A stretch of 41,164 nucleotides of DNA. Origin: a virus. The position numbers were made by a program, and so were the translations under genes. Under the pieces are notes generated by a model. The model did not search any database. It saw only the letters and a list, made by a program, of their open reading frames with translations, and was not told the DNA's origin. This document shows, in pieces, positions 5,591 to 40,307 of this stretch; positions within the stretch are counted from its first letter, which is position 1; each line of letters starts with the position of its first letter. The DNA lies in the IMG/VR virus record IMGVR_UViG_3300045049_000170, positions 1-41,164 of that record, one strand, 5' to 3'.

Positions 5591-7294
5591 TTAGAGCCCC
5601 CCGATGTTTTTAAGAGCGGTGGCTTTCATCATGAGAGATGTGTACGCGCTCGGGTTGGTCCTTTTCAGGTTATCGACATAGGCTTGCTGCCGTGCCGGGT
5701 CCATCGTCTTAAGTTGGAAGAGAACTGGGTCGAAGTTATTTCGCCAAGTCCGCTCGAATTGATCCATGTTCGCCACATTTCCGCCCTGCTGGTCCTTCCA
5801 CGCCTGCGCGGCATTGGCTTTACCCTGAAGCGCAAGTTCCCCGGCTTTGCCCCATTCGGCCATTGCCTGAAGGGCTTGCGGGAACATCTTGCTATTGGGG
5901 TTGGCGCGTGTGAATGATTCCAGCTGTGCATCCGTTCCCGTACCTCCCGCCGCCTGCCACGCACGCTGAGCGTTCTGGTAGAGGAACTTGTTCAGCTCCT
6001 GGAAGCCCGAAACATCGTCCTTCCAATTGCCAGTCACGTTCTTGAGCAAAGGCGTGTTCGCGGCGAAGCCCTTCACCGCGTTGATCCACTCCTGACCGGG
6101 ACCCGTGGTGACCCCCTGTTTGGACAGGTTCAGGATGTTGTCGAAGACGTTGACTCGCGTTGGACTGTCGGAAGACTGGGTGATGAGCGAGTTGTAGCGA
6201 TCGGCGTTCGCGCCAGCGAGCTTTTCCTGAGATTTCTCGAAACCCGGCGCTTGAGCGGGAGTGATGACCGATTCGCTCCTAGGAAGCGATTGCTGCATGC
6301 GGATCGCTTCGCGGACATTCGCCTGATCTTGCGGAGGCAGCTTTGCAATCGCCGCCTCCAGACCAGGAGCGTTGAGGTCGAAGCCCGGGGTCAGGGACGC
6401 GCCGGCTTGCGGAGGAGGCAAGCTGCCCGTTGCTCGTTGAACGTCTTGAGCAACCGTGCTGAACTGCGGCTTGCCGTTCACATAAACTACGGAAGGCGTT
6501 GCTTGCGCCTTGCCGAAGGTCTTGGCTCGTTCGCCCAGCCCAATGGCAGCTTCTGCATTGCCGATCGGCTGATATTCGATGACATTTCCGTTCGCGTCGA
6601 ACCGAGGCATCGTGCCTTCGGGTACGTGCGGATTGAAGGCAACCACTTTCGACGGATCAAAGGGATCGCGAAGAATAGAGCCTGGCCGCGCATTCACCGG
6701 AGCTACGTAGTTCTGCTTGGCCAAGTTGCCTTGGATCATGGAACGCCCGATTGGCGAATTCGGATCGATCCCAGCGGCCATCAGCATCTTGGAGAAGTCT
6801 GTCGGCGAGTTGTAGCTCGTGACTGCTTTGGCAAGTTCAGCTGGCCCCCCCAGCGCGAGCGTCACGCCCGCTTGTGAGGCGGGCATCCCGAAGATATTCC
6901 CGCCGCCTGCCGATGCAGGGGCCGAGGAAGTCTGGCCACCTGTGGGAATTCCAAACGTACCGCTGCCCAATGATCCGCCAGGACTCGGCTCGATAGCAGG
7001 CTGGGACGGCGCTGCGGTAGCCGCCTGACCGGACAACGATCTGCCGATCATGTCATAGACCGGCTTGAGCGCTTCCCATTGTTGTTGCGCGCGCTGCAAC
7101 TCGATATTCCGAATCTGCAATTGTTGCGCGAGGTCCTGACGTTTGAGCTGATCGGTCTGCAGCTGTCGGTACGTGTCACCTGCTTGCGCAAGTCGTCCTG
7201 CAAGGTTCGTCGGCGTCAGAGAGGGAGCAGCGGCTGAGAGAAGGCCCAGCGCCTGCATCCCGTCATCAGTGTTGAACGCGTCGAGAAGTCCCAT
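5591..7294 (-). CDS. Large internal virion / DNA-ejection protein 2
   Basis: 567 residues from ATG 7294 (MGLLDAFNTDDG). This start is chosen because it follows the upstream stop at 7296 and because the sequence before it is Arg-rich out-of-frame translation of the neighbour. A Gln-rich coiled coil (~30-75) is followed by a Pro/Gly-rich middle and a helical C-terminal half. It pairs with the 716-residue protein as the two large cargo proteins expected in a podovirus head. No catalytic motif was seen. Confidence 0.6.
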   Translation of the reverse strand: MGLLDAFNTDDGMQALGLLSAAAPSLTPTNLAGRLAQAGDTYRQLQTDQLKRQDLAQQLQIRNIELQRAQQQWEALKPVYDMIGRSLSGQAATAAPSQPAIEPSPGGSLGSGTFGIPTGGQTSSAPASAGGGNIFGMPASQAGVTLALGGPAELAKAVTSYNSPTDFSKMLMAAGIDPNSPIGRSMIQGNLAKQNYVAPVNARPGSILRDPFDPSKVVAFNPHVPEGTMPRFDANGNVIEYQPIGNAEAAIGLGERAKTFGKAQATPSVVYVNGKPQFSTVAQDVQRATGSLPPPQAGASLTPGFDLNAPGLEAAIAKLPPQDQANVREAIRMQQSLPRSESVITPAQAPGFEKSQEKLAGANADRYNSLITQSSDSPTRVNVFDNILNLSKQGVTTGPGQEWINAVKGFAANTPLLKNVTGNWKDDVSGFQELNKFLYQNAQRAWQAAGGTGTDAQLESFTRANPNSKMFPQALQAMAEWGKAGELALQGKANAAQAWKDQQGGNVANMDQFERTWRNNFDPVLFQLKTMDPARQQAYVDNLKRTNPSAYTSLMMKATALKNIGGL

Positions 7295-12376: not shown

Positions 12377-13300
12377 TTAGGCGATGTCGTAGACCGCGCC
12401 GTGCGCCTTGGGAGCTCGGCATTCGAGCGTCCACTCGCAGATCAGCTCACGCTTTTCGCTGTCGCCCGTCTTGGCCAGTTCCACGGTCTGGAACGGACGC
12501 AGATAGGCCACAGCCAGCTTGTCCGACTGGAGGATGAACACGTCGCGGGTGCGGCTGAAGCGGTTCGGCACCGCCTTGAGTTCGCCGAAATCCGACACGT
12601 ACACATCGACCGAGGCGTAGAGCTTAGCGTCTTCGCTCTTGTCGAAGCGAGTCGCGTTACCAGTGAACGAGGAGAACGTCTGCTTGGCAGCCGGGCCCAT
12701 CATCACCGTGTCCGGCTCGCCACCGGCCGTGTAGACAAGCTGGAGAACGGATTTGAGCTGCGACTCCACAAACGCACGGGTCGTGCCGTCCGTCGTGCCC
12801 GTGTTGCCCGTATAGGAGGCCAGGGTCGTGTCCGAGGCTTTGGAGGTGTTGTCCACCACCCAGCCCAGAAGACCACGGGATTGACGCGGAGACGTGGCAA
12901 GCACCTGGTTTTGGGTCAGGCCCAATTCCATGTCGCGCTTGAGTTCCAGGGACGCCAGCGAGACTTGATAGCCCAGTTCGTCCTTGCGGCCGGCCGGATT
13001 CATGGCTTGCTGGGTGCCCGAGACGATCACGGTCTTCGTGCTGATCTGCGTGCGGTTGTTCAGACGGGTCGTGGGGGTGACCGTCTTCGCCGTCGCATCG
13101 TCGCCTTCGGCCTGGGCGTTGGACGCTGCAGCCGCGAGGTCTTGGGTTTGCCACTCGTGCAGGGTGTTCGTGGCCTTCGACTTGGAGGCCATCGACAACA
13201 CGGGAGTCGTGGTCGGGGAGATGCGATATATCACATCGGTAAGGTCTTCACGATTGCCGATGGCGCTCGTGGTGAGGTAAGTACCGCTGGGTGCGGACAT
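12377..13300 (-). CDS. Major capsid protein (DUF5309 / SU10-type HK97 fold)
   Basis: 307 residues. The opening (NREDLTDVIYRISPTTTPVLS) and the later segments EWQTQDL, QISTKTVIVSGTQ and SRGLLGWVVDN are characteristic of the DUF5309/SU10 major capsid family, an HK97-fold shell protein. The C-terminal region has KLYASVDVYVSDFG and the ending RAPKAHGAVYDIA. It lies between the scaffold gene and a strong terminator. No protease gene is visible, in line with scaffold-dependent assembly. Confidence 0.85.
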   Translation of the reverse strand: MSAPSGTYLTTSAIGNREDLTDVIYRISPTTTPVLSMASKSKATNTLHEWQTQDLAAAASNAQAEGDDATAKTVTPTTRLNNRTQISTKTVIVSGTQQAMNPAGRKDELGYQVSLASLELKRDMELGLTQNQVLATSPRQSRGLLGWVVDNTSKASDTTLASYTGNTGTTDGTTRAFVESQLKSVLQLVYTAGGEPDTVMMGPAAKQTFSSFTGNATRFDKSEDAKLYASVDVYVSDFGELKAVPNRFSRTRDVFILQSDKLAVAYLRPFQTVELAKTGDSEKRELICEWTLECRAPKAHGAVYDIA

Positions 13301-14428: not shown

Positions 14429-14734
14429 TCATTCGTTGAAGAAGGCCGATTTCGCGTCTCTCGCGCGCTCGGCGAGCGAGCGCTTGTGTTCCAGCTCCAG
14501 CTTCGCCAGCTTGCCCGTCTCCAGCGTTGACTGGATCGTTGCTTTGACCTTCCCCAGCAGGGTCAGTGACAGGTGAAGTCGTTCCCGTTTTTCCAAATGC
14601 TCTTTCGAGGCGGGGATGTTTCGCCATGATTCGATCAAGTCCTTTTCAATGAGGTCGAAAGCCAGAATGAACTGCTCGTTCTCCAAGACCTCACGAGCGC
14701 GATCTCCGTTGTAAAGGCGTTCTTCGAGGGTCAT
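14429..14734 (-). CDS. Small helical protein between portal and scaffold
   Basis: 101 residues, almost wholly helical and charged (FDLIEKDLIESWRNIP, KREREL-type heptads). The ATG at 14734 overlaps the portal's stop (ATGA). The 126 bases after it, up to the scaffold start at 14302, hold no gene. Proteins of this size and place are often small assembly factors; no family was recognised. Confidence 0.6.
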   Translation of the reverse strand: MTLEERLYNGDRAREVLENEQFILAFDLIEKDLIESWRNIPASKEHLEKRERLHLSLTLLGKVKATIQSTLETGKLAKLELEHKRSLAERARDAKSAFFNE

Positions 14735-17064
14735 TCGCTAGCCTGGTCGGGTTGAGCCTTGTTCGCAGCGCTGATCTGAGCGGCTTGCAAGGTAGTTCCT
14801 GCCGTGGTTTCGGCCACTTCGATCTTGGCCGCGTTGTTCATGTGCGCGATCAAGAGGTCTACCGTGTTCTGCAGCTGCGCGAGTCTTTCATCAGCGGCGA
14901 TGCGCTGCGCTTCGAGTTGGGCCTCCAGCATGGCTTGCTGTTGCGCCCTTTGAGCTTCCAGATGGTTTTGGAGAGCGTTCTGTTGCGCCTGCACTTCCTG
15001 CAAGTGAGCCTGAAGGGTTGCATCCAACTGAGCTTGATGCGCCCTGCCCTCGGCATCGGCCATGATCTTTTGCTGGTCCGTCTGGGCCTTGATCTGGGCT
15101 TTGCCTTGTTCGATCTGCAGTTGTCCCTGTACCTTGGCCTGCATCTCCTGGGCGGCAGGATTTGGAGGCGGATTGTTCGGGTCGGGTTTCGTGAAGAACT
15201 TGTCTCCGTTCTTGAACCCGACGTTCTTGGCGAACTCGATCGCGCAGTTATAGATGTTTTCCGGGGTCGCGATGCCGATCGCCAAACCCTTTCCCTGGAG
15301 TTCTGTCAGCGTCATCAGGTGTGCGGCTCGTTGGTCCTTGTCACCCATCCCCAGCCCTACTGAAATGCTCACATCGAACTGGTTTCTCCATTCCCTGGGG
15401 TCCATCGACACCCACTGACCGGCGATCTTCAACTCTGCATGTCTGTCCTGGTACTGACAAACCAGCTTGAGCATCATGCGGAACAGGTCGACAAACCCTT
15501 CCGCGAAGTTTCTGGCGATCAGGTCCAGACGCATATCGGCTTTGTTGGCCACGATACGCGTCTTGGTCGCTGTCTCGCTGTCGTTCAGGGCTGTGGGGTC
15601 ATTGCCCTGGCTGTTTCTGCTCCAGCCGGTGGAATCTTCCAGTCGTTGATGTCCATACTCCAAAAGTCCCATCGCTTCGGAAATATTGCCCTTGCCTTGG
15701 TCCAGGCGACCGACGGCTTCGCGGTTCTTTGCGCGGACCACGCCACCAGGGCGAGAAGTCAGCAGATCGTCTAGGTTGACCTGCCCCTCGACGGCGACAT
15801 ACCGACCATTGACCTCCAAGTAGAGGTTGTCGCGGATCGCACGCTCGACCGCCGTGTTGGCAAGTTGTTGTTCCATGGCCAAGTCCGCGATCGACAGGCC
15901 GAAGAACTTGTGCGGCATGGGGACCGGGCAGATGGACACAAAGGGGATGATGTCCACTACTTCGTTGTCCAGAATCTGATTTCCGGCCCGAGTGACTTTC
16001 CTCAATTCGGCAATGCCGTCACCGTCATAGTCACAGCGCAGATAGCATTCCGTGACCCAGACAATCCGTTGGGATTCGTCAGTGTTCTCAGCCCCGATGT
16101 TCAGATACGCCTGTTCATCGTCGTAGCCCAAACGCTCTACGCGTTCCATGTTCAGGGCTACCGCCGCATCGTCTCCTTCGATCGCATCGACGTTCTTGTA
16201 ACCCATCGAGCGAAGTTCCGACAGGGTTCGAGCGAACCGATGCCCCACGAACGGAGAGGACTGGATGTCCATCTTCGCTTTACGAGAAATCAGGAATTCC
16301 TCGGGAGGAACGTTCTCAATGCAGACTTTTCCACCCTTTTTAGTCCGCTTGCACACCACGTCATACAGGAGCGCAGGAGGCGTCTGCACGATGGCCTGCA
16401 TATGAGCCTGAATTTGTCCAATCGCAGCCGCTGCCTGTTGATTTCCTTGCTGGGCAGCGTTCAGGGCTTGGTCTAGCTGCTGTTGAAGTTGCTGGAGAGC
16501 TTGCTTTCTCTGCTCCGCATCCTCTTCGTCGGGATAGGAGTTCTGCTCCGTGATCTCCAGCTCTTTGTCATCGGCCAGCTGGGCCAATTCAATCGGATCT
16601 AGGCCCTGATATTCCTCGCGCGTTTCCTCGTTGCGCGTGTCCCACCAGACTTTCAGGATGCCCCGCTTTTGAAGGAGAGCGTCCTTGAACCAGGTGTAGC
16701 AAATCTGATGGCCGTTGTTCTTCTTGAAGAACAGGTGATTCAGATAGTCGGTGCACTGTTGCGCTTTTTGTTCGTCACCCGGCTTGGTGGGCTCGAACTC
16801 CACCACGATGTCCCCACCCGTGAACTTCACCATCAATTGAGGCAGCATCGCCTCGATGGTGTTTCGAACGTCAGTGGAGACGACCTGCGACCGGCCTTCG
16901 ATCTCGGGGGGTGCAAGATCGCCCTTCGGCAGTCCGAGGTAGTAGTACTCGGCGCGGCGGCGTTGTTCTGCCAGCTTCCCGCCGTAATACCCGACCGAGT
17001 TGCGAAGCTCGCTGTCTGTCAGCGCCTTCAGCCGGTCATCGGTCATTGGGGTCGGTTTGGTCAT
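14731..17064 (-). CDS. Portal protein (long, SU10/P22-like)
   Basis: 777 residues. It forms the dodecameric DNA gate at one capsid vertex. Recognisable landmarks: an N-terminal wing with RRRAEYYYLGLPKGDL (~36-50), VVSTDVRNTIEAMLPQL (~62-78), the clip/stem region with DGIAELRKVT (~350), and WSRNSQGNDPTALNDSETAT (~480). From about residue 630 the C-terminus is a very long Gln/Ala-rich coiled coil, typical of portals with a barrel. Length is at the upper end for short-tailed phages. Genes on both sides fit. Confidence 0.85.
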   Translation of the reverse strand: MTKPTPMTDDRLKALTDSELRNSVGYYGGKLAEQRRRAEYYYLGLPKGDLAPPEIEGRSQVVSTDVRNTIEAMLPQLMVKFTGGDIVVEFEPTKPGDEQKAQQCTDYLNHLFFKKNNGHQICYTWFKDALLQKRGILKVWWDTRNEETREEYQGLDPIELAQLADDKELEITEQNSYPDEEDAEQRKQALQQLQQQLDQALNAAQQGNQQAAAAIGQIQAHMQAIVQTPPALLYDVVCKRTKKGGKVCIENVPPEEFLISRKAKMDIQSSPFVGHRFARTLSELRSMGYKNVDAIEGDDAAVALNMERVERLGYDDEQAYLNIGAENTDESQRIVWVTECYLRCDYDGDGIAELRKVTRAGNQILDNEVVDIIPFVSICPVPMPHKFFGLSIADLAMEQQLANTAVERAIRDNLYLEVNGRYVAVEGQVNLDDLLTSRPGGVVRAKNREAVGRLDQGKGNISEAMGLLEYGHQRLEDSTGWSRNSQGNDPTALNDSETATKTRIVANKADMRLDLIARNFAEGFVDLFRMMLKLVCQYQDRHAELKIAGQWVSMDPREWRNQFDVSISVGLGMGDKDQRAAHLMTLTELQGKGLAIGIATPENIYNCAIEFAKNVGFKNGDKFFTKPDPNNPPPNPAAQEMQAKVQGQLQIEQGKAQIKAQTDQQKIMADAEGRAHQAQLDATLQAHLQEVQAQQNALQNHLEAQRAQQQAMLEAQLEAQRIAADERLAQLQNTVDLLIAHMNNAAKIEVAETTAGTTLQAAQISAANKAQPDQASE

Positions 17065-17240: not shown

Positions 17241-18119
17241 TCAACCTGCCTCGTGGATGATGGTCAGTTCTTGAGCGCCGACCGTGTCGGTGGTCCCACT
17301 GGATTTGACAGTCATCGTCAACCAAATCGCGTTCGAAGAGATGTCCGATAGACCGGTAGTTGCAGCTGCAATCACCCCAGTAGACCCAGAGCTGTAGCTG
17401 CCGAAGTTCGTACCATTCATGCCCATCTTCTGCATCGACGTGTTGCTCAGAACTCGAACGCCAAATAGGACGCCAGAGGTAACGTTCGTCGTAGACGCGA
17501 TGCTTAGCGCAGACAGTCCGGTAATCGCAGTGTCGGAAACCGTTCCAGTTGTCCCAACCCGCAGCGACACTTGTATGCTATCTGTCGTACCGCTTTTGTT
17601 GGCAGACATGCGGATGTAGATAAGGTCGCCAGACTGGATCGCGCCAGCTGGAACCTGAATCTGCGCCAGGATCGTCTCCGTATTCGCAATCCCACTGACC
17701 GCACCTCCCATTCGCTTGAGGACGGTCTGGCCACTCATGGGTAGCCAACGAGTTCCATTGCTCCAGACTTTCGTGCCGTTCGCGCCCCAGTCCGACGCAA
17801 AGGCTTCAGCGCCTGTGTTGTTCGCAGCCGAAGGAAGAGCCGCATACGTGAACGAGCCGAGATAGGCAGACGCAGCGGCTTGTCTCGTACCAGCACTCAC
17901 GTCGTAATAGACGCCCCGCTGAACGCTCGTGAGCTTGACGCTGGCTCCAGCCGTGAAAGGGCCGAACGAACGAGTTCCAGAGAACTCCAGAACCGTCGTT
18001 CCGGCAGGATTCTCATAACGCACCCACCCATTGGGACACTGCACTGTAAGAATCTCGCCAGGAGAGACAGAGAACGTCGCATTGCTGCCGTCAGCAATGG
18101 TGGAAACAGTAGCTGTCAT
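17241..18119 (-). CDS. Head fibre / decoration protein
   Basis: 292 residues. The N-terminal ~75 residues form a compact beta domain (VSPGEILTVQCPNGWVRYEN ...), the middle contains GTKVWSNGTRWLPM, as in phage fibre shafts, and the C-terminal ~160 residues are a Ser/Thr/Gly-rich beta domain resembling head- or tail-fibre tips. Its place between terminase and portal suggests a capsid-bound fibre rather than a tail fibre. Inference only. Confidence 0.5.
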   Translation of the reverse strand: MTATVSTIADGSNATFSVSPGEILTVQCPNGWVRYENPAGTTVLEFSGTRSFGPFTAGASVKLTSVQRGVYYDVSAGTRQAAASAYLGSFTYAALPSAANNTGAEAFASDWGANGTKVWSNGTRWLPMSGQTVLKRMGGAVSGIANTETILAQIQVPAGAIQSGDLIYIRMSANKSGTTDSIQVSLRVGTTGTVSDTAITGLSALSIASTTNVTSGVLFGVRVLSNTSMQKMGMNGTNFGSYSSGSTGVIAAATTGLSDISSNAIWLTMTVKSSGTTDTVGAQELTIIHEAG

Positions 18120-18129
18120 ATGGACCTTT

Positions 18130-19527
18130 TCAGGCTGTGTGAAGCCTTGGGTAGTTCAGTGGCTTGTTCATCATTCCGGGCATCCCCAGCTCAGCGAACG
18201 TCAGCAGCCATGCATCGGCACGGTTCGGGCTCTTGACCCCACGCGCCTTTAGTTCGTCTTTGCGCTCGACCTGGATCAAGCCGTTGGACAGAATCTTGTA
18301 TGTCGGGGTGGTCAGCTCGCCGATGGTCTCGTCGTCATCAGCCAACTTGCAATCCTTGGCCTGGAGCCATTCACGGCCCTTCCACCACAGCTCATCACGC
18401 AGCCGGTTGAATTGCCGGTCAGCCCCGTCGTTGATTGCCTCGGCTTCCGCGACGTTCACGCCTACAGCGGGAAGGCCCAGTTCTTTCAACCGATCACAGA
18501 CCCCAGCTCCAATGCCGATCACATCTACGTTGATGGCCATCGGTCGATCTTTGAGCGGCGTCGCATCCCATTCGGCCTTGACGATGCCCACCGTCTGCAT
18601 CGTGTCCTTGCCGAACCACTCTCGAATCCGCTCTAGCTGGTGATTGCCCTTGCGCTTGGCCAGCGCAGATGAATCGTCACCGAACCGAGCCACGTCCACA
18701 CCCCAAACGACCGGCGCGGAAGAATTGACTTCGACATCTCGAACCTTGGCCGCTTCACACAACTCAAGCGGGATCACCCCATCGGGAGCAGTGACGAAAT
18801 CACCCTTTACCCGAACCTTGAACACAGGCGATTGGCGTCCGTACTTCTTCTCCATGTTGGAGATGTACTCGCGGGATACCCTCGGGCTTTTCTCTCCATC
18901 CCAATGCAGTGCAGCCCAAGCTCCTCGCATCTTGTGATGCGAGTCGAAGAAATAGCCGCTTTGCCTGGTCGGGTTGGCCGCCATCACGACGTAGGCCCCG
19001 TCAGTGGAAAGTGCACCTTCCGCCACCTCAAAGACGTTGTCCGCAACGCCCGAGGCTTCGTCGATCAAGAACAAGATGTAGTCGGCATGAAAGCCCTGCA
19101 ATGCCTCAGGACGTTCAGGTCGGCTGGTTCGCGCGACCGCAAACCCTTCATTGGGGGCCTGTTTCAGTCGATACGCACCATTGGACCATTCGAACTCCGA
19201 CCCCAGCGCCGGCAAGCGGCCACACATGATCCGGTGCCACTTCGCGATCTCGGCCCACAGCACATCCTCTAGCTGGTGGCTCGTTGGAGCTGTAGCCGGA
19301 ACCTTGGCGGGAAAGTAGCAAGCCAAGAACCACAGAACACACCACGCCATAAAGGTGCTCTTGCCCGTTCCGTGCCCCGATCGGATCGAAACACGCCGCC
19401 TTTCAACGAGAGCCCTAGATCCATCCCACTGTTGCTCGGTCGGCTCGGCTCCTAATACCTCTTGAGCAAAGAGGCATGGGCCGCCCTCACGCCACCGGAG
19501 AATTGCCTCTTGCGTTGGCGACAGCAT
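18130..19527 (-). CDS. terL: Terminase large subunit
   Basis: 465 residues; the ATP-driven packaging motor and nuclease. Walker A is SGHGTGKST (~50-58), Walker B with catalytic Glu is ILFLIDEA (~151-158), and a coupling motif VMAANPTR follows (~181-188). The RNase-H-like nuclease has acidic residues in WGVDVARFGDD (~275-285), NVDVIGIGAG (~333-342) and SPNRADAW near residue 443. Its start overlaps the small terminase gene by about 40 bp. Circular permutation of the contig would suit headful packaging, but cos cannot be excluded. Confidence 0.93.
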   Translation of the reverse strand: MLSPTQEAILRWREGGPCLFAQEVLGAEPTEQQWDGSRALVERRRVSIRSGHGTGKSTFMAWCVLWFLACYFPAKVPATAPTSHQLEDVLWAEIAKWHRIMCGRLPALGSEFEWSNGAYRLKQAPNEGFAVARTSRPERPEALQGFHADYILFLIDEASGVADNVFEVAEGALSTDGAYVVMAANPTRQSGYFFDSHHKMRGAWAALHWDGEKSPRVSREYISNMEKKYGRQSPVFKVRVKGDFVTAPDGVIPLELCEAAKVRDVEVNSSAPVVWGVDVARFGDDSSALAKRKGNHQLERIREWFGKDTMQTVGIVKAEWDATPLKDRPMAINVDVIGIGAGVCDRLKELGLPAVGVNVAEAEAINDGADRQFNRLRDELWWKGREWLQAKDCKLADDDETIGELTTPTYKILSNGLIQVERKDELKARGVKSPNRADAWLLTFAELGMPGMMNKPLNYPRLHTA

Positions 19528-25861: not shown

Positions 25862-25887
25862 GTTGCGGTCCTTTCAGAGATAAAAGC

Positions 25888-25903
25888 GGCCGACGTATCG
25901 GCC
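25888..25903 (-). terminator. tR1-like hairpin after the Cro-like gene
   Basis: A perfect 6-bp stem GGCCGA-loop-TCGGCC followed on the minus strand by GCTTTTATC. It stands between the Cro/YdaS-like gene and the rest of the early minus operon, the position of lambda tR1. The stem is short, so termination may be partial. Confidence 0.5.
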
Positions 25904-25990
25904 AAAAGCAAGCCCTACCTGGAGGAGGTTGGAGACTTCACTGCGATGGGCGCAGTGGGGCTTGCTGGGGGGTTGGGTGAGGGGCATGCG

Positions 25991-26305
25991 TTATCCCCTC
26001 GCGGTTGTCTTGTGTTCGCTGTCGTTGGCGGCTTCGCCGATAACGGGAGCGCCCGGGAGCCCGCGCAGATCGGGCCAGATGCCCCACCATTTGTCGGGGA
26101 AGAATTCCCAGCAGGCAGGGTCAGCGCAGCACAGGTCATGCATCCGACGTACGAATCCCTCGGGCACGTCGCTGTTGCCTGCTAGCCAATGCTCGACATG
26201 CTGCCGCTTACAGCCAAAGCCGATCGCAGCCGCAAGCTTCGAGGCGCTGCCGTCAAATTTCGAGAGCGCCCTCCCGACGAGAATGGGGTGAAAGTCGTAT
26301 CTCAT
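25991..26305 (-). CDS. Cro/YdaS-like transcription regulator
   Basis: 104 residues from ATG 26305 (MRYDFHPILVGRALSKFDG). GSASKLAAAIGFGCKRQHVEHWLAGNSDVPEGFVRRMHDLC is a YdaS/Cro-type helix-turn-helix (about residues 17-60). The rest is a Trp/Pro-rich tail. It is the first gene of the minus early operon, with promoter and operators in the 70 bp that separate it from the divergent repressor gene. The predicted start site lies only about 14 bases upstream of the ATG, so the leader is nearly absent. Role: lytic-side regulator by analogy with Cro. Confidence 0.72.
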   Translation of the reverse strand: MRYDFHPILVGRALSKFDGSASKLAAAIGFGCKRQHVEHWLAGNSDVPEGFVRRMHDLCCADPACWEFFPDKWWGIWPDLRGLPGAPVIGEAANDSEHKTTARG

Positions 26306-26310
26306 GAGTC

Positions 26311-26372
26311 GCAAACTTGTTTGCAGAATACTCGCAAACTTGTTAGCGCGCAAGAGGTGCAAAATCTTTTGC
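26311..26372. promoter_or_regulatory. Left operator cluster O1-O2-O3 (lambda OR-like)
   Basis: Three 14-bp palindromes: GCAAACTTGTTTGC (26311-26324), GCAAACTTGTTAGC (26334-26347) and GCAAAATCTTTTGC (26359-26372), with centres about 23 and 25 bp apart. O3 ends 2 bp before the repressor ATG. Identical or near-identical sites recur at 30837 and 30869. This is a shared repressor operator set. Confidence 0.85.
26325..26353 (-). promoter_or_regulatory. Minus-strand early promoter (PR analogue)
   Basis: TTGCGC (26353-26348), a 17-bp spacer that contains operator O2, and TATTCT (26330-26325). O1 lies just downstream of the -10. Binding at O1/O2 would block this promoter. Same architecture as the promoter at 30859-30887. 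Confidence 0.65.
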
Positions 26373-29151: not shown

Positions 29152-30114
29152 TCAAGCGAAGGACGCGGTCGTGTCGCGACTAGTTCCGCGATAGGTCAGC
29201 CGCTTACCGGCGATGCCCTTGAGGGCCGCATCGGCGCGGGCAACGTCGGAGAAGCCTTGCGATTGGCGATAGTTCCAGCGAAAGTCGAACTCATTGCAGT
29301 AGCGCTGCAGGTGCTTTTCGCTCACAGCGTGGAACGTGCCTGTCAGACCGCGCTTGAGGATCGCAAAGGACGATTCGACCGTGTTGGAGTGGACCTCACC
29401 ACGCGCGTACTCGCCCTTCTTGTGGTTCGTTGTGCCGTGGGCCGCGAACTGCTGGCCGATCTTCTTGTAGTAGGACGCTTCGTCGGTCATCAGGCGAGCC
29501 GACTGCGCCACTTGCGTCTTGAGGATCGGGCCGAGGGTCACAGCGTTCACGTTGGCGACGTGATAGGAGCGCTTATCGCCGTCACGCTCGACGAGTGAGA
29601 CGATCTTCATCTTGTCGGCGTGGCCGCGACGAACGCCAGCGGGATAGCGAATGCCCTCCTCGTCGGTCTTCACGCCCCAGAACGTTTCGTCGGCTTCAAC
29701 GATGCCGGAGGAGCCGGGGCCGCCCAACAGCGTGGAGGATTCGGCCGTCATCGCCTCGCGGATGCGGTGCGCCATGAACCAGGCGGTCTTGTAGGTCACG
29801 CCCAGCATGCGCTCCAGCTGCTTGGCGCTAATGCCCTTCTTGCTGGCGCACATCAGGTGCACGGCTTGGAGCCAAACGTTCAAGGCGATCTTGGAGCGCT
29901 CGAAAACCGTACCCACCGTGACCGTGAACTGCTCGCGGCAGGAACCGCACTTGTACACGCCGGGACGGTGGGCCTTGCCTTCCAACTTGTAGGCATGGCC
30001 GATCACGCCGCAGTGGGGGCAGATAGCTCCATTGGGCCAGCGCAGCGCTTCGAGGTATTCGCGGGCCTTCTCGGCGTCCGTGAAGTGAGGCTGGTTCAGG
30101 ATTGCTTGGCCCAT
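29152..30114 (-). CDS. IS1595-family transposase-like protein
   Basis: 320 residues. An N-terminal zinc ribbon (CPHC at 32-35 and CGSC at 56-59) is followed by an HTH-like region (SAKQLERMLGVTYKTAWFMAHRIREAM) and the DDE-type core: VEADETF (Asp142), LMTDEASYY (Asp211), HSNTVESSFAILKRGL (Asn244/Glu247), ending with FHAVSEKHLQRY. These match Zn_Tnp_IS1595 and DDE_Tnp_IS1595. Full length and intact. I find no terminal inverted repeats or target duplications at the edges and it has its own promoter and flanking terminators, so it looks like a captured gene rather than an IS copy. Confidence 0.85.
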   Translation of the reverse strand: MGQAILNQPHFTDAEKAREYLEALRWPNGAICPHCGVIGHAYKLEGKAHRPGVYKCGSCREQFTVTVGTVFERSKIALNVWLQAVHLMCASKKGISAKQLERMLGVTYKTAWFMAHRIREAMTAESSTLLGGPGSSGIVEADETFWGVKTDEEGIRYPAGVRRGHADKMKIVSLVERDGDKRSYHVANVNAVTLGPILKTQVAQSARLMTDEASYYKKIGQQFAAHGTTNHKKGEYARGEVHSNTVESSFAILKRGLTGTFHAVSEKHLQRYCNEFDFRWNYRQSQGFSDVARADAALKGIAGKRLTYRGTSRDTTASFA

Positions 30115-30123
30115 TGCGGTTCT

Positions 30124-30167
30124 CCGACTGATGGGAATCAGTGTAATACTTCAGTCGGGTTTGTCAA
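30124..30167 (-). promoter_or_regulatory. Promoter of transposase gene inside a palindrome
   Basis: TTGACA (30167-30162, perfect consensus -35), 16-bp spacer, TACACT (30145-30140). An 8-bp inverted repeat CCGACTGA / TCAGTCGG (30124-30131 and 30151-30158) flanks the -10, and ACTGAT / ATCAGT (30127-30132 and 30137-30142) nests inside it. A DNA-binding protein, perhaps the transposase itself, likely controls this promoter. Confidence 0.65.
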
Positions 30168-30182
30168 GTACCTACTTCCGCA

Positions 30183-30208
30183 AGAAAAAGGCCCCTCTAG
30201 GGGGCCTT
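30183..30208 (-). terminator. Intrinsic terminator between XRE gene and transposase promoter
   Basis: An 8-bp stem (30088+100 style positions 30188-30195 with 30201-30208, loop TCTAG) followed on the minus strand by TTTTTCTTG. It should stop transcripts coming from the XRE gene at 30424-30720 before they reach the transposase promoter, so the transposase gene is controlled alone. Confidence 0.75.
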
Positions 30209-30402
30209 GACTGACGCCCGGGCTAGCTTGGAATCGCCTATCCGGGCCGCTGCCGCTGTCTCTCAAGCCGCAGACTCAAGCCGGCTTTCGCCGGAGACAA
30301 AGTGACTTTACCACTTCAGATCATCCCTTGTCACGCTAGGTCATCGCCTATCATCGCCCCCCCCAGCGCTCCGGCCGCTTTCTCTCCCATGAGCCGGATT
30401 TC
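30209..30402. other. Gene-poor stretch with hairpins between two terminators
   Basis: Nearly 200 bases with no convincing frame. Hairpins: GCCCGG...CCGGGC near 30216-30246, CCGGC-TTTC-GCCGG near 30281-30295. TCGCCTATC occurs twice (near 30233 and 30352). On the plus strand it ends in a strong terminator at 30403-30425, so a plus-strand transcript crossing it (from upstream of the transposase, or a small RNA) would be stopped there. Confidence 0.4.
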
Positions 30403-30425
30403 AGCCACCTGCGGGTGGCTTTTTT
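30403..30425 (+). terminator. Plus-strand intrinsic terminator with no plus-strand gene ahead
   Basis: AGCCACC-TGCG-GGTGGCT stem (30403-30409 with 30414-30420) followed by TTTTT at 30421-30425. The nearest upstream plus-strand gene ends at 28902. It partly overlaps the stop of the minus-strand XRE gene, so it protects that gene from antisense readthrough, or ends an unannotated plus-strand RNA. Confidence 0.8.
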
Positions 30426-30720
30426 ACAGACCTGCGGGCCAGTCCGCCTGTGACGCCTCGTGCTCGCGGAAGATGTCCTCCAGCAGTCTTCCTCCGATCG
30501 GCGTTGAGCTGATCCCGAGCAATAGCCAGTCGGTCGATTTGCCATAGAGGATTGCCAGGTCCACCAGCTCATCGAGCGTGAGCGGGCTTCCCCGTTCCCA
30601 CGCCGACACTGACTGGCGACTCCTCCCCAGATCGTGTGCCACTTCAGCCTGGGTGAGCTTGGCCGCGCGCCGCGCTAGCCGCAAACGCTCGCCGATCTCG
30701 ATCCATTTCTTTGGGCTCAC
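30424..30720 (-). CDS. Second XRE-family regulator
   Basis: 98 residues from GTG 30720 (SPKKWIEIGERLRLARRAAKLTQ). The XRE helix-turn-helix spans ~10-66: KLTQAEVAHDLGRSRQSVSAWERGSPLTLDELVDLAILYGKSTDWLLLG (landmark). The C-terminal ~25 residues are acidic and short. It lies divergent to the plus-strand early operon with the operators at 30837/30869 on its 5' side. A palindrome CAGGCT-TACGTC-AGCCTG (30740-30757) sits just upstream of the start. Either this or the 26375 protein, or both, occupy the shared operators. Confidence 0.75.
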   Translation of the reverse strand: MSPKKWIEIGERLRLARRAAKLTQAEVAHDLGRSRQSVSAWERGSPLTLDELVDLAILYGKSTDWLLLGISSTPIGGRLLEDIFREHEASQADWPAGL

Positions 30721-30836: not shown

Positions 30837-30887
30837 GCAAAGTTCTTTGCCCGCCCTCTTGCATTTCGGCAAACTTGTTTGCATACT
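30837..30887 (+). promoter_or_regulatory. Right operators and plus-strand early promoter (OL/PL analogue)
   Basis: Operators GCAAAGTTCTTTGC (30837-30850) and GCAAACTTGTTTGC (30869-30882); the second is identical to O1 at 26311. Promoter: TTGCAT (30859-30864), 17-bp spacer containing the second operator, CATACT (30882-30887). The first gene starts 40-50 bases later with GGAGAGGAG. The match in layout with the 26.33-kb promoter is close. Confidence 0.8.
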
Positions 30888-30937: not shown

Positions 30938-31420
30938 ATGAGCGACAACCACTTCCTCTACTACGCCGCGAGGCTGCAGGACGCAGGAGTGCGCCATCTG
31001 AGCATCACTCTTGACGTAGACCACAAAGGCTTTCGCGTGATGCATGTCGTGCCGCGCGTTGCCTTCAATGCCAGCACGGCTTCGGCTGTGTATGCGGAGC
31101 GCTCATTTCAACTGACCGGCATCGACCCAGAGCTGCAGCAGATCGAGGATGACTTGGTCTACGGCGAAGGCGGCGTGACACCAGAACGTGTCGCCGCGGC
31201 CATTCGTGAGAACCCTGTCTACGCCCCGGACCTTACCGAGTTCGCCGAACGCTGGAAGGCAAACGACCTGGACGACGCAATCGCTCAGGAAATGGAGCGC
31301 GAGCCGACAGCCGAAGAACTTGCCGCCGCCGAAGTGACCCATGAGCGCCTGATGCAGTTCGTCAAAGGGCTGCAGCGCGGGCTCGATGGCAAGCGTGGTC
31401 GCGAAGTATCTCGCAGGTAA
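30938..31420 (+). CDS. First gene of plus-strand early operon, unknown
   Basis: 160 residues from ATG 30938 with AAGGAGAGGAGAG upstream. Acidic; N-terminus HFLYYAARLQDAGVRHLSITLDVD, later ERVAAAIRENPVYAPDLTEFAERW and a basic end (KGLQRGLDGKRGRE). No family recognised. In lambda this position is occupied by N, but no arginine-rich RNA-binding N-terminus is visible here. The stop TAA lies inside the first hairpin of the structured RNA region. Confidence 0.6.
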   Translation: MSDNHFLYYAARLQDAGVRHLSITLDVDHKGFRVMHVVPRVAFNASTASAVYAERSFQLTGIDPELQQIEDDLVYGEGGVTPERVAAAIRENPVYAPDLTEFAERWKANDLDDAIAQEMEREPTAEELAAAEVTHERLMQFVKGLQRGLDGKRGREVSRR

Positions 31421-31616
31421 CCACCCTCCCTGCCCCGCAGAGCCGGGGTAGTCGAGTGGTTATTTCCTGATGAACAAGTTTTTGGAGAGAGCAGATAGGT
31501 GGATCGGCGTGGAAAGCAGACACGCGACGTTAGGCGAGCCCGAGGACGCTCGGCACGTTGATCTCTAGAAGCGGTTCTAGCCCCAGTAGCGCGGGGCATC
31601 CACCTACCTGCTCTTT
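31418..31616 (+). ncRNA. Structured RNA: hairpin plus multi-branched domain
   Basis: Domain 1: TAACCAC (31418-31424) pairs with GTGGTTA (31456-31462) around an inner CCCCG-CAGAGC-CGGGG hairpin. Domain 2: a 16-bp closing stem (31489-31504 with 31598-31613, one mismatch, extendable to 31486/31616) encloses four back-to-back helices: 507-511/521-525, 526-530/555-559 with inner CCGAG-GACG-CTCGG (540-553), CTAGAA-GCGG-TTCTAG (565-580) and GCCCC...GGGGC (580-597); offsets are from 31000. No coding frame crosses it. It lies in the leader after the first early gene, where antitermination or regulatory RNAs are found. Confidence 0.6.
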
Positions 31617-31655
31617 GTATTGATTCCCGACATTCACCACGGAGAGAACACCGGA

Positions 31656-31700
31656 ATGAAACCCGATCCCACTCCCACCCTGGAAGAACTGCAGGCATGA
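31656..31700 (+). CDS. 14-residue leader peptide
   Basis: MKPDPTPTLEELQA, TGA at 31698-31700, with CGGAGAG upstream of its ATG. Its stop overlaps the next gene's ATG (ATGA), so it may couple translation of the 31697 gene to reading of the structured leader. Its shortness makes it a modest call. Confidence 0.4.
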   Translation: MKPDPTPTLEELQA

Positions 31701-31921
31701 GAACCGCAATCGTGAACTACCGGGGCATCGAGCTTGAGTGTGATTTCGAGTTCGATCCTCCCGAAGCAAGGGATTCGGATCACCCTGGATTTCCTGCGGA
31801 GGCCCATCTCGATTCCTGCCGTCACAAGGGTGAGGACATCACTGAAATGCTCACGGGAAGCCAAATCGATGAGATCGAAGTGAAGTTGGCTGAAGAGATG
31901 GAAGAAAGGATGGGTGTATGA
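31697..31921 (+). CDS. Small acidic hypothetical protein
   Basis: 74 residues; N-terminal beta hairpin (AIVNYRGIELECDFEFDPPE), C-terminal acidic helix (IDEIEVKLAEEMEERM). The first part resembles phage proteins with a compact N-terminal domain, no function assigned. ATGA overlaps at both ends couple it to its neighbours. Confidence 0.55.
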   Translation: MRTAIVNYRGIELECDFEFDPPEARDSDHPGFPAEAHLDSCRHKGEDITEMLTGSQIDEIEVKLAEEMEERMGV

Positions 31922-38674: not shown

Positions 38675-38911
38675 GTGAGTGACAGTATTACGCTCTCACC
38701 CGACGAATTGGAAGCCCTGACAGGCTACACCCAAGCCACGAAGGTATTGCGGGTTTTGCACTCTCGCGGGTTCCTGCGCGCTTTCATCAACCGAAAGGGT
38801 GAAGTGGTCTTGGAGCGAAGCCACTACGAAGCCGTGACGAGGTCAAAGATGGAAGATGCCGTTACTGGCTCTCGCAAGGCCGCTAACTTGAGCTTCCTGC
38901 GTGCAGCATGA
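38675..38911 (+). CDS. DUF4224 / excisionase-like protein
   Basis: 78 residues from GTG 38675. The sequence ITLSPDELEALTGYTQATKVLRVLHSRGFLRAFINRKGEVVLERSHYEAV is the DUF4224 winged-helix-like pattern (landmark) seen just upstream of phage integrases. It probably directs excision. It overlaps the integrase start (ATGA). Confidence 0.65.
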   Translation: MSDSITLSPDELEALTGYTQATKVLRVLHSRGFLRAFINRKGEVVLERSHYEAVTRSKMEDAVTGSRKAANLSFLRAA

Positions 38912-40002
38912 TCCGACGCCGCGCCAAGCCTGACGGTCTTCCTTTCCGCGTCTACGAGCGGTTTGGAGTGCGCACGTACTCGATCGGGTACAAGATGCGG
39001 TCGGGGAAGTGGTCCTATCGCTATGAGTGCGCTGTCGATGATGCGCAGAAGATTCAAGAGCTACGGCGCAAGGCGATTCTGGAATCAGCCAACATCAAAG
39101 AGGATCGGCCTATCGGCGGGTTCTCAGGTTTGATTGATGCGTGGTTCGAGTGGCAGGGCGATTTACCCGAAGGCGACAAGCGCAAGCGCAAACCCTCCAC
39201 CATCGCGGAGAACAAGCGCGAGGCGGCGAATCTGAAGAAGGCGTGGGGGCACTTCGAAGTCAATGAGATCACACGCACCATGGGGTACGAATACCTCGAT
39301 GCTTGCGCCAAGGCTCGGCCCGAGAAGGGCAACAAGGAGATGGCCTTGGCTCGCCTCATTCTGGAGTTCGGCATCCGCAAGGGCGTTCTTTCGGAGAACC
39401 CGCTGAATCGGCTGACGAAGAACAAGACGGCGAAGGCTCGGCGAAGGGTCACTGCCGAGGAATTGGCTCTGACCGTAGAGGTCGGGCGAAAGATGAAGGG
39501 GGCGCCTCTCATCGTGGCCTTGGGTCTAAAAACCGCGTGGCTCTGTGTGCGTCGCTCCGTGGAGGTTCGTGCGATCCAGCGTCAGGCGATTCGAGAAGAC
39601 GGCATCCTCTGGCACGATGGGAAAGACCCAACGAAGCCCGCAATCCTCATCGAGTGGAGCGACGAGCTGCGCGCCACGATCACAGAAGCGCTAGAAATAA
39701 AACGCAGCAAGGTCGCTGGGACCATGTACGTCTTCGGCAATCTCCGACACGGATCAAGGTACACCAAGGGCGGATGGAAATCCGTGTTGGACGACCTGAT
39801 GACCGAATGCGTCAAAGTCGCCAAAGAGCGCAAGATGCCGTTCCGCAAGTTCAGCCTGCAGGACTGCCGTCCTATGGGAGTGTCCGACAAGCTGGAAAAG
39901 GGCCATCAGGACGTGCAAGATGCGACCTTGCATTCAGATGGGAAGATGGTTGCGCGGGTGTACGACCGGCGCGAATTCAAGCGGGCTAAGCCTGCTGCCT
40001 AG
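38908..40002 (+). CDS. int: Tyrosine-recombinase integrase
   Basis: 364 residues. Basic arm-binding N-terminus (~1-60), core-binding helical domain (~70-170), catalytic domain with Arg at CVRR (about 215), second Arg in SLQDCRPMG (321; the HxxR His is Gln here), KGHQD His333 and Tyr352 in VYDRR. Ends 0.15 kb before attP. Plausible partner of the att site in tRNA-Asp. The Gln at box II is unusual but occurs in some integrases. Confidence 0.88.
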   Translation: MIRRRAKPDGLPFRVYERFGVRTYSIGYKMRSGKWSYRYECAVDDAQKIQELRRKAILESANIKEDRPIGGFSGLIDAWFEWQGDLPEGDKRKRKPSTIAENKREAANLKKAWGHFEVNEITRTMGYEYLDACAKARPEKGNKEMALARLILEFGIRKGVLSENPLNRLTKNKTAKARRRVTAEELALTVEVGRKMKGAPLIVALGLKTAWLCVRRSVEVRAIQRQAIREDGILWHDGKDPTKPAILIEWSDELRATITEALEIKRSKVAGTMYVFGNLRHGSRYTKGGWKSVLDDLMTECVKVAKERKMPFRKFSLQDCRPMGVSDKLEKGHQDVQDATLHSDGKMVARVYDRREFKRAKPAA

Positions 40003-40090: not shown

Positions 40091-40307
40091 CATATTCCAA
40101 AGTCTGCTACCTGAATTCCAACGCTATGGAATCGGGAGCAAACTTTCAACACAGTGGCGGAGTGGACGGGACTCGAACCCGCGACCCCCGGCGTGACAGG
40201 CCGGTGGATGATCTCAGCATTGGCGCGGGTTTCAGCCTCTTTTCATATTCCAAAGATGGCCGATTTCCTGAGGAGTTTCCCTCTGACGCCAAAATAGCAT
40301 TCCAAAG
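40091..40307. other. attP: attP region with arm sites and tRNA-Asp core
   Basis: Core: 40155-40205 equals the 3' half of tRNA-Asp. Arm-type repeats of consensus ATTCCAAAG: CATATTCCAAAG at 40091-40102 and 40244-40255, GCATTCCAAAG at 40297-40307; degenerate GAATTCCAACG at 40113 and an inverted ATGGAAT near 40125. Arm repeats on both sides with an intact core mean the phage is in its circular attP form. Confidence 0.8.
40155..40205 (-). pseudogene. 3' half of tRNA-Asp(GTC)
   Basis: Reverse complement reads CCGGC-CTGTCAC-GCCGG (anticodon stem-loop, GTC), variable GGGTC, T-arm GCGGG-TTCGAGT-CCCGT... and acceptor CACTCCG-CCA. The 5' half is missing, so it is not a tRNA gene but the attachment identity block that would restore the host tRNA-Asp 3' end on integration. 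The E. coli tRNA-Asp(GTC) 3' half is almost the same. Confidence 0.85.

Follow-up and report, generated by a model that had tools for sequence, protein, structure and literature searches.

To our knowledge, RNA-only control of transcript elongation has been described in very few phages, namely as the put sites of phage HK022 and their relatives. HK022 put suppresses terminators without a phage protein and acts through the β' zinc-binding domain. Helices in early phage messages are also known as RNase III processing sites, for which T7 and the lambda N leader serve as models; the comparison with the early sites of T7 made below draws on general knowledge. In the early transcript of HK022, the putR site forms two stem-loops at a distance of ~270 nt from the transcription start (PMC9378689). 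The consensus of boxA is GYTCTTTAANA (PMC5725501). In phage O276, putR starts 25 nt after cro. HK022 putR likewise adjoins cro on its downstream side, and the structured gap of the phage described here lies directly after the first rightward gene.

The phage is temperate and podovirus-like. Its sequence is IMG/VR record IMGVR_UViG_3300045049_000170, all 41,164 bases of which constitute the window that was analysed. The features that define its overall layout are as follows.
12377-13300, leftward structural block: SU10-type capsid gene
14731-17064, leftward structural block: portal gene
38908-40002: integrase gene
~40152-40205, adjoining the integrase gene: 3' half of a tRNA-Asp-like sequence, in our reading the attachment core
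Judged from its sequence, the tRNA-Asp-like segment at 40152-40205 is probably the phage attachment site. An exact search for its core in 399 Pseudomonadota genomes gave no match. The portals of the nearest relatives in the collections are 55-68% identical to that of the window. An IS1595/ISXO2-type transposase gene (29152-30114, minus strand) adjoins the right-hand regulator gene, and transposases similar to it are carried by Burkholderiales genomes.

The early genes belong to a leftward and a rightward operon, which by analogy with lambda would be of the PR and PL type, respectively. The operator palindrome GCAAAnnnnTTTGC is present in four copies in the window, compared to 0.1 expected.
25991-26305, minus strand: first leftward early gene, in the cro position, 104 aa
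26311-26372, no strand: second operator pair, GCAAACTTGTTTGC at 26311 and GCAAAATCTTTTGC at 26359, between divergent regulator genes
26325-26353, minus strand: probable leftward early promoter, TTGCGC-17-TATTCT, overlapping an operator site
30837-30882, no strand: operator-like palindromes, GCAAAGTTCTTTGC at 30837 and GCAAACTTGTTTGC at 30869
30859-30887, plus strand: probable rightward early promoter, TTGCAT-17-CATACT, overlapping the operator at 30869
30938-31420, plus strand: first rightward early gene, 160 aa, with a strong ribosome site
31656-31700, plus strand: reading frame of 14 codons, sharing ATGA with the next gene
31697-31921, plus strand: next early gene, 74 aa
The operator palindrome is common to two distinct divergent regulator pairs (26311, 26359, 30837, and 30869), an unusual double immunity layout. 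Both promoters are probable assignments from the sequence, the rightward one by consensus inspection with a match at only 7 of 12 positions. The preliminary description had placed the structure behind gene 1 of a repressor-controlled early operon, and the overlap of the promoter with GCAAAnnnnTTTGC-type operators bears this out.

The leftward operon proceeds from the cro-position gene to genes for a primosomal protein, NinB, and NinG. The rightward operon contains the 160-aa gene, the 74-aa gene, and the genes for Erf, SSB, and integrase, and is tightly packed apart from the structured gap. The 104-aa protein in the cro position has no family match, and the 160-aa product of the first rightward gene matches nothing in Pfam or PHROG; protein searches with the latter and with Erf gave no relatives. 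The 74-aa early protein has a homologue with 46-48% identity in phage record G001.

The gap after the first rightward gene contains two strong helical elements, a 5' hairpin and a long closing helix that begins 25 nt past the end of the hairpin.
31421-31655, plus strand: untranslated gap, 235 nt, 3' of the first rightward early gene
31418-31462, plus strand: 5' hairpin, 45 nt, containing the first gene's stop codon
31470-31568, plus strand: ATG frame of 32 codons, overlapping the 5' half of the structure
31488-31504, plus strand: 5' arm of the closing helix, with one mismatch, at A31495
31505-31597, plus strand: enclosed segment, 93 nt, with four predicted helices of chance-level stability
31598-31614, plus strand: 3' arm of the closing helix, with mismatch base C31607
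31609-31620, plus strand: boxA-like TGCTCTTTGTAT, inside the closing helix and fully paired
The closing helix (31488-31504/31598-31614) had been described as 16 bp long, extendable, and with one mismatch; it is found in place and reaches 17 bp, with A31495/C31607 as its single mismatch, and encloses 93 nt. It is the top inverted repeat in the window among those with spacers of 40-310 nt, and 0.08 repeats equal to it are expected per window from dinucleotide shuffles. The 5' hairpin, previously noted as a separate unit, has a folding energy of -21.8 kcal/mol (z -3.96), and none of 300 shuffled sequences is as stable.

Thermodynamic folding, proposed in the preliminary description, gives -64.6 kcal/mol for the core of the element (31481-31622), compared to a mean of -47.1 for shuffled sequences (z -4.5, 0 of 200 shuffles as stable). 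Among 1,368 windows of 142 nt covering both strands, the core is the most over-stable on either strand, with the runner-up at z -3.9. The excess stability is confined to the two inverted repeats, that is, the 5' hairpin and the closing helix. The 93-nt interior has a z of -0.12 on the plus strand, where 139 of 300 shuffles are at least as stable, and of +0.21 on the minus strand. The four back-to-back helices reported for it are present in the plus-strand minimum-energy fold, the second of them missing from the centroid, but the multi-branched compactness attributed to them is not upheld. Since the interior folds at the level of its shuffles, four helices are typical of its composition, and a compact junction cannot be claimed.

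The polarity of the fold is ambiguous. The core folds equally well on the minus strand (z -4.9), and the ensemble is better defined there, with a mean pair probability of 0.94 versus 0.80 on the plus strand. The A-C mismatch of the closing helix becomes a G-U pair on the minus strand; together with the tighter minus-strand ensemble, this leaves the strand undecided as far as folding models go. The preliminary description had also stated that no coding frame covers the structure, which is nearly right, the exceptions being the 32-codon ATG frame and an antisense frame of 137 aa. The 32-codon frame at 31470-31568 has no good ribosome site and no tblastn relative and is, from its sequence, probably not a gene, while the antisense frame over the structure looks spurious.

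The position of the gap matches that of a nut- or put-type antitermination site, as had been suggested, but neither put nor consensus boxA is found in it. We located putL and putR in the HK022 record through their similarity to each other, checked them against the annotated copies, and built a covariance model (R2) from seven known put sequences. The model recovers a put site in a Pantoea phage outside the training set with 44.9 bits, and its controls range from 44.9 to 94.6 bits, whereas its best overlap with the gap region scores 1.8 bits. The identification of the element as put RNA was rejected on this absence of a match. Furthermore, put is ~70 nt long, conserved in sequence, and matched by a similar copy on the left transcript, whereas the element described here is ~200 nt long and lacks such a twin.

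The resemblance to lambda nut and to the boxA of rrn operons lies in the location in early leader RNA, transcribed from an operon under repressor control, and in the octamer TGCTCTTT at the 3' edge, which has a ~0.5% probability of occurring in the gap by chance. The octamer differs from them in being off consensus in its 3' half and fully paired, and it was rejected as a boxA because of this misfit and its inaccessibility. The longer TGCTCTTTGTAT at 31609 fits only the first half of the consensus. The site GCTCTTTGTAT has three mismatches to the consensus and an unpaired probability of ~0 over its core, and is not among the matches to consensus boxA with at most two mismatches. No N-like protein was recognised by profile search, N proteins being small and divergent.

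The closing helix was rejected as an intrinsic terminator, as it has a long loop and is followed by UUGUAUUG, a poor U tract. There is no intrinsic terminator match at 31600-31625 on the plus strand, and no standard intrinsic terminator is predicted on that strand from 31616 downstream. A search of Rfam, including its riboswitches, sRNAs, and ribozymes, gave nothing above threshold, the best sub-threshold E value being 2.3. The earlier remark that no known family came to mind agrees with the lack of matches to Rfam, HK022 put, and consensus boxA. The element belongs to the structured early-leader segments of phages, outside every named family tested.

A second structure mirrors this arrangement on the left.
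25870-25985, minus strand: leftward structure, directly 3' of the cro-position gene
Its first part is a branched hairpin that has UUUU and is closed by a helix of 9 bp; a second, terminator-like hairpin follows. The whole structure has a folding energy of -41.4 kcal/mol (z -5.2, 0 of 200 shuffles as stable). A terminator-like match at 25904-25887 on the minus strand is a hairpin that resembles a canonical terminator. The leftward structure is specific to the minus transcript, with a z of -3.65 versus -1.53 on the other strand. As significant structures follow the first gene in both operons, both occupy the place of nut, put, or immediate-early terminators in lambdoid phages. The pair resembles lambda tL1 and tR1 in that each early operon has its structure immediately past gene 1, and the left element contains U runs; the right element differs in its 93-nt branched loop and weak U tract. 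A put-like pairing of the left and right elements was rejected, because the alignment of their transcripts is not significant and they have no sequence in common.

Homologues of the element were not found by blastn of the region against phages and plasmids. Exact patterns in IMG/VR gave only chance matches, in coding or unrelated sequence. Both blastn and a single-sequence covariance model (R1) were empty when applied to portal relatives, in sets of 35 and 39 records and genomes. R1 also found nothing in 369 genomes, although a single-sequence model is weak and its empty result shows little. Blastn against two groups, with 343 and 374 genomes, yielded only a 24-nt chance match. Approximately 1,100 bacterial genomes from three taxon samples were searched in total. 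The element is a real but orphan feature.

Other structured segments occur in other records. In the portal relative G015 (IMGVR_UViG_2551306468_000008), a long untranslated structured leader lies past the early promoter (30150-30560; L068:11150-11560), and this prophage early leader contains a perfect boxA, CGCTCTTTAACA, at 30186. The sequence suggests that the G015 early operon is under Nus-type control and that at least one member of the portal lineage uses a Nus-type leader. G001, which has the nearest early gene (48% identity in the 74-aa protein), has a different leader that is structured too. The 13-mer GTTAGGCGAGCCC, common to the G001 leader and the gap, was dismissed as chance-like (BLAST E 0.027) and has no structural match. 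G001 also contains a 440-nt noncoding, strongly folded region (L054:6240-6680, z -3.2) upstream of an operator-controlled early promoter, and within it a long palindromic hairpin (6481-6561). In G006, a ~30-bp hairpin with a small branched tip (L076:9820-9990; -74.9 kcal/mol in 171 nt) is located directly upstream of a primosomal-protein homologue. Positions 17777-18164 of G018 (L072/L073) resemble a group I intron by eye.

The element most likely serves in cis to control either elongation or processing of the early transcript at the boundary between immediate-early and delayed-early genes. Of these two roles we favour elongation, to which we assign a probability of roughly 0.4. Under this hypothesis, the structured stretch between the cistrons of the rightward early mRNA would separate immediate-early gene 1 from the remainder of the operon, and the passage of RNA polymerase could be altered at it through attenuation, through pausing, or through antitermination of the nut and put kind. 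We infer that it acts in cis as a plus-strand RNA and that elongation is its target. The strongest argument for this is the symmetric placement in both repressor-controlled operons. On each side, operators are paired with promoters and a structure directly follows gene 1, as putR follows cro in HK022. In addition, a repeat of which 0.08 are expected per window falls within the 235-nt gap, the core ranks first in stability, the 5' hairpin is significant independently of it, and the early leader of the relative G015 is long, untranslated, structured, and equipped with the perfect boxA CGCTCTTTAACA. Elongation control is opposed by the lack of a homologue or covariation, of consensus boxA or put, and of a downstream plus-strand terminator that would need suppression. 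It is also opposed by the poor U tract, by the equally good folding of the minus strand, and by the lack of sequence common to the left and right elements, unlike in putL and putR.

The chief rival, which we regard as somewhat unlikely although the simple anatomy fits it equally well, is an RNase III processing or mRNA-stability site, whose helix would be cut or would protect ends and so split the message of gene 1 from that of the operon. A long, near-perfect duplex with an unremarkable interior, placed between two cistrons of an otherwise tight operon, is what such a site would look like; it needs no U run, and the early RNase III sites of T7 are likewise long intercistronic duplexes in early phage mRNA. 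For the gap element, such a cleavage role is putative. Furthermore, at 17 bp and with one mismatch the helix is short for a strong site, and the 5' hairpin is left unexplained. The better-defined minus-strand fold (0.94 versus 0.80), first in the genome scan, would instead suit a separate small RNA, released from or transcribed through the gap on either strand and acting in trans. A minus-strand RNA at this place would resemble lambda OOP in position. We consider such an RNA quite unlikely, as the minus strand has no promoter-like site in this region, and there is neither a terminator U run nor an Rfam relative.

The symmetry of the fold between strands, together with the confinement of all excess stability to two inverted repeats, is also compatible with a role at the DNA level, as a protein-binding or recombination site or as what is left of a small mobile element, without any function as RNA. 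This is very unlikely, given that neither the window nor the searched collections contain a second copy and that a terminal duplication was not seen. Chance folding of a G+C-rich spacer would account for an interior at shuffle level, and shuffled sequence would supply 0.08 repeats of the grade of the closing helix per window; with the closing helix and an independent 5' hairpin sharing one gap, and a core ranking first of 1,368 windows, it is highly improbable.

Under the elongation-control reading, the most specific form would be an RNA antiterminator or attenuator that needs no factor, belongs to a new sequence family, and acts in cis past gene 1 in a temperate podovirus, with a functional counterpart past gene 1 of the mirrored operon; we deem this quite improbable. 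If the structure is merely a processing site or a spacer, it would be an ordinary feature of early mRNA, here in a temperate phage that is uncharacterised. If such an antiterminator or attenuator is real, it would be a second, unrelated case of RNA-only control and would open a comparative study of how RNA modifies RNA polymerase.
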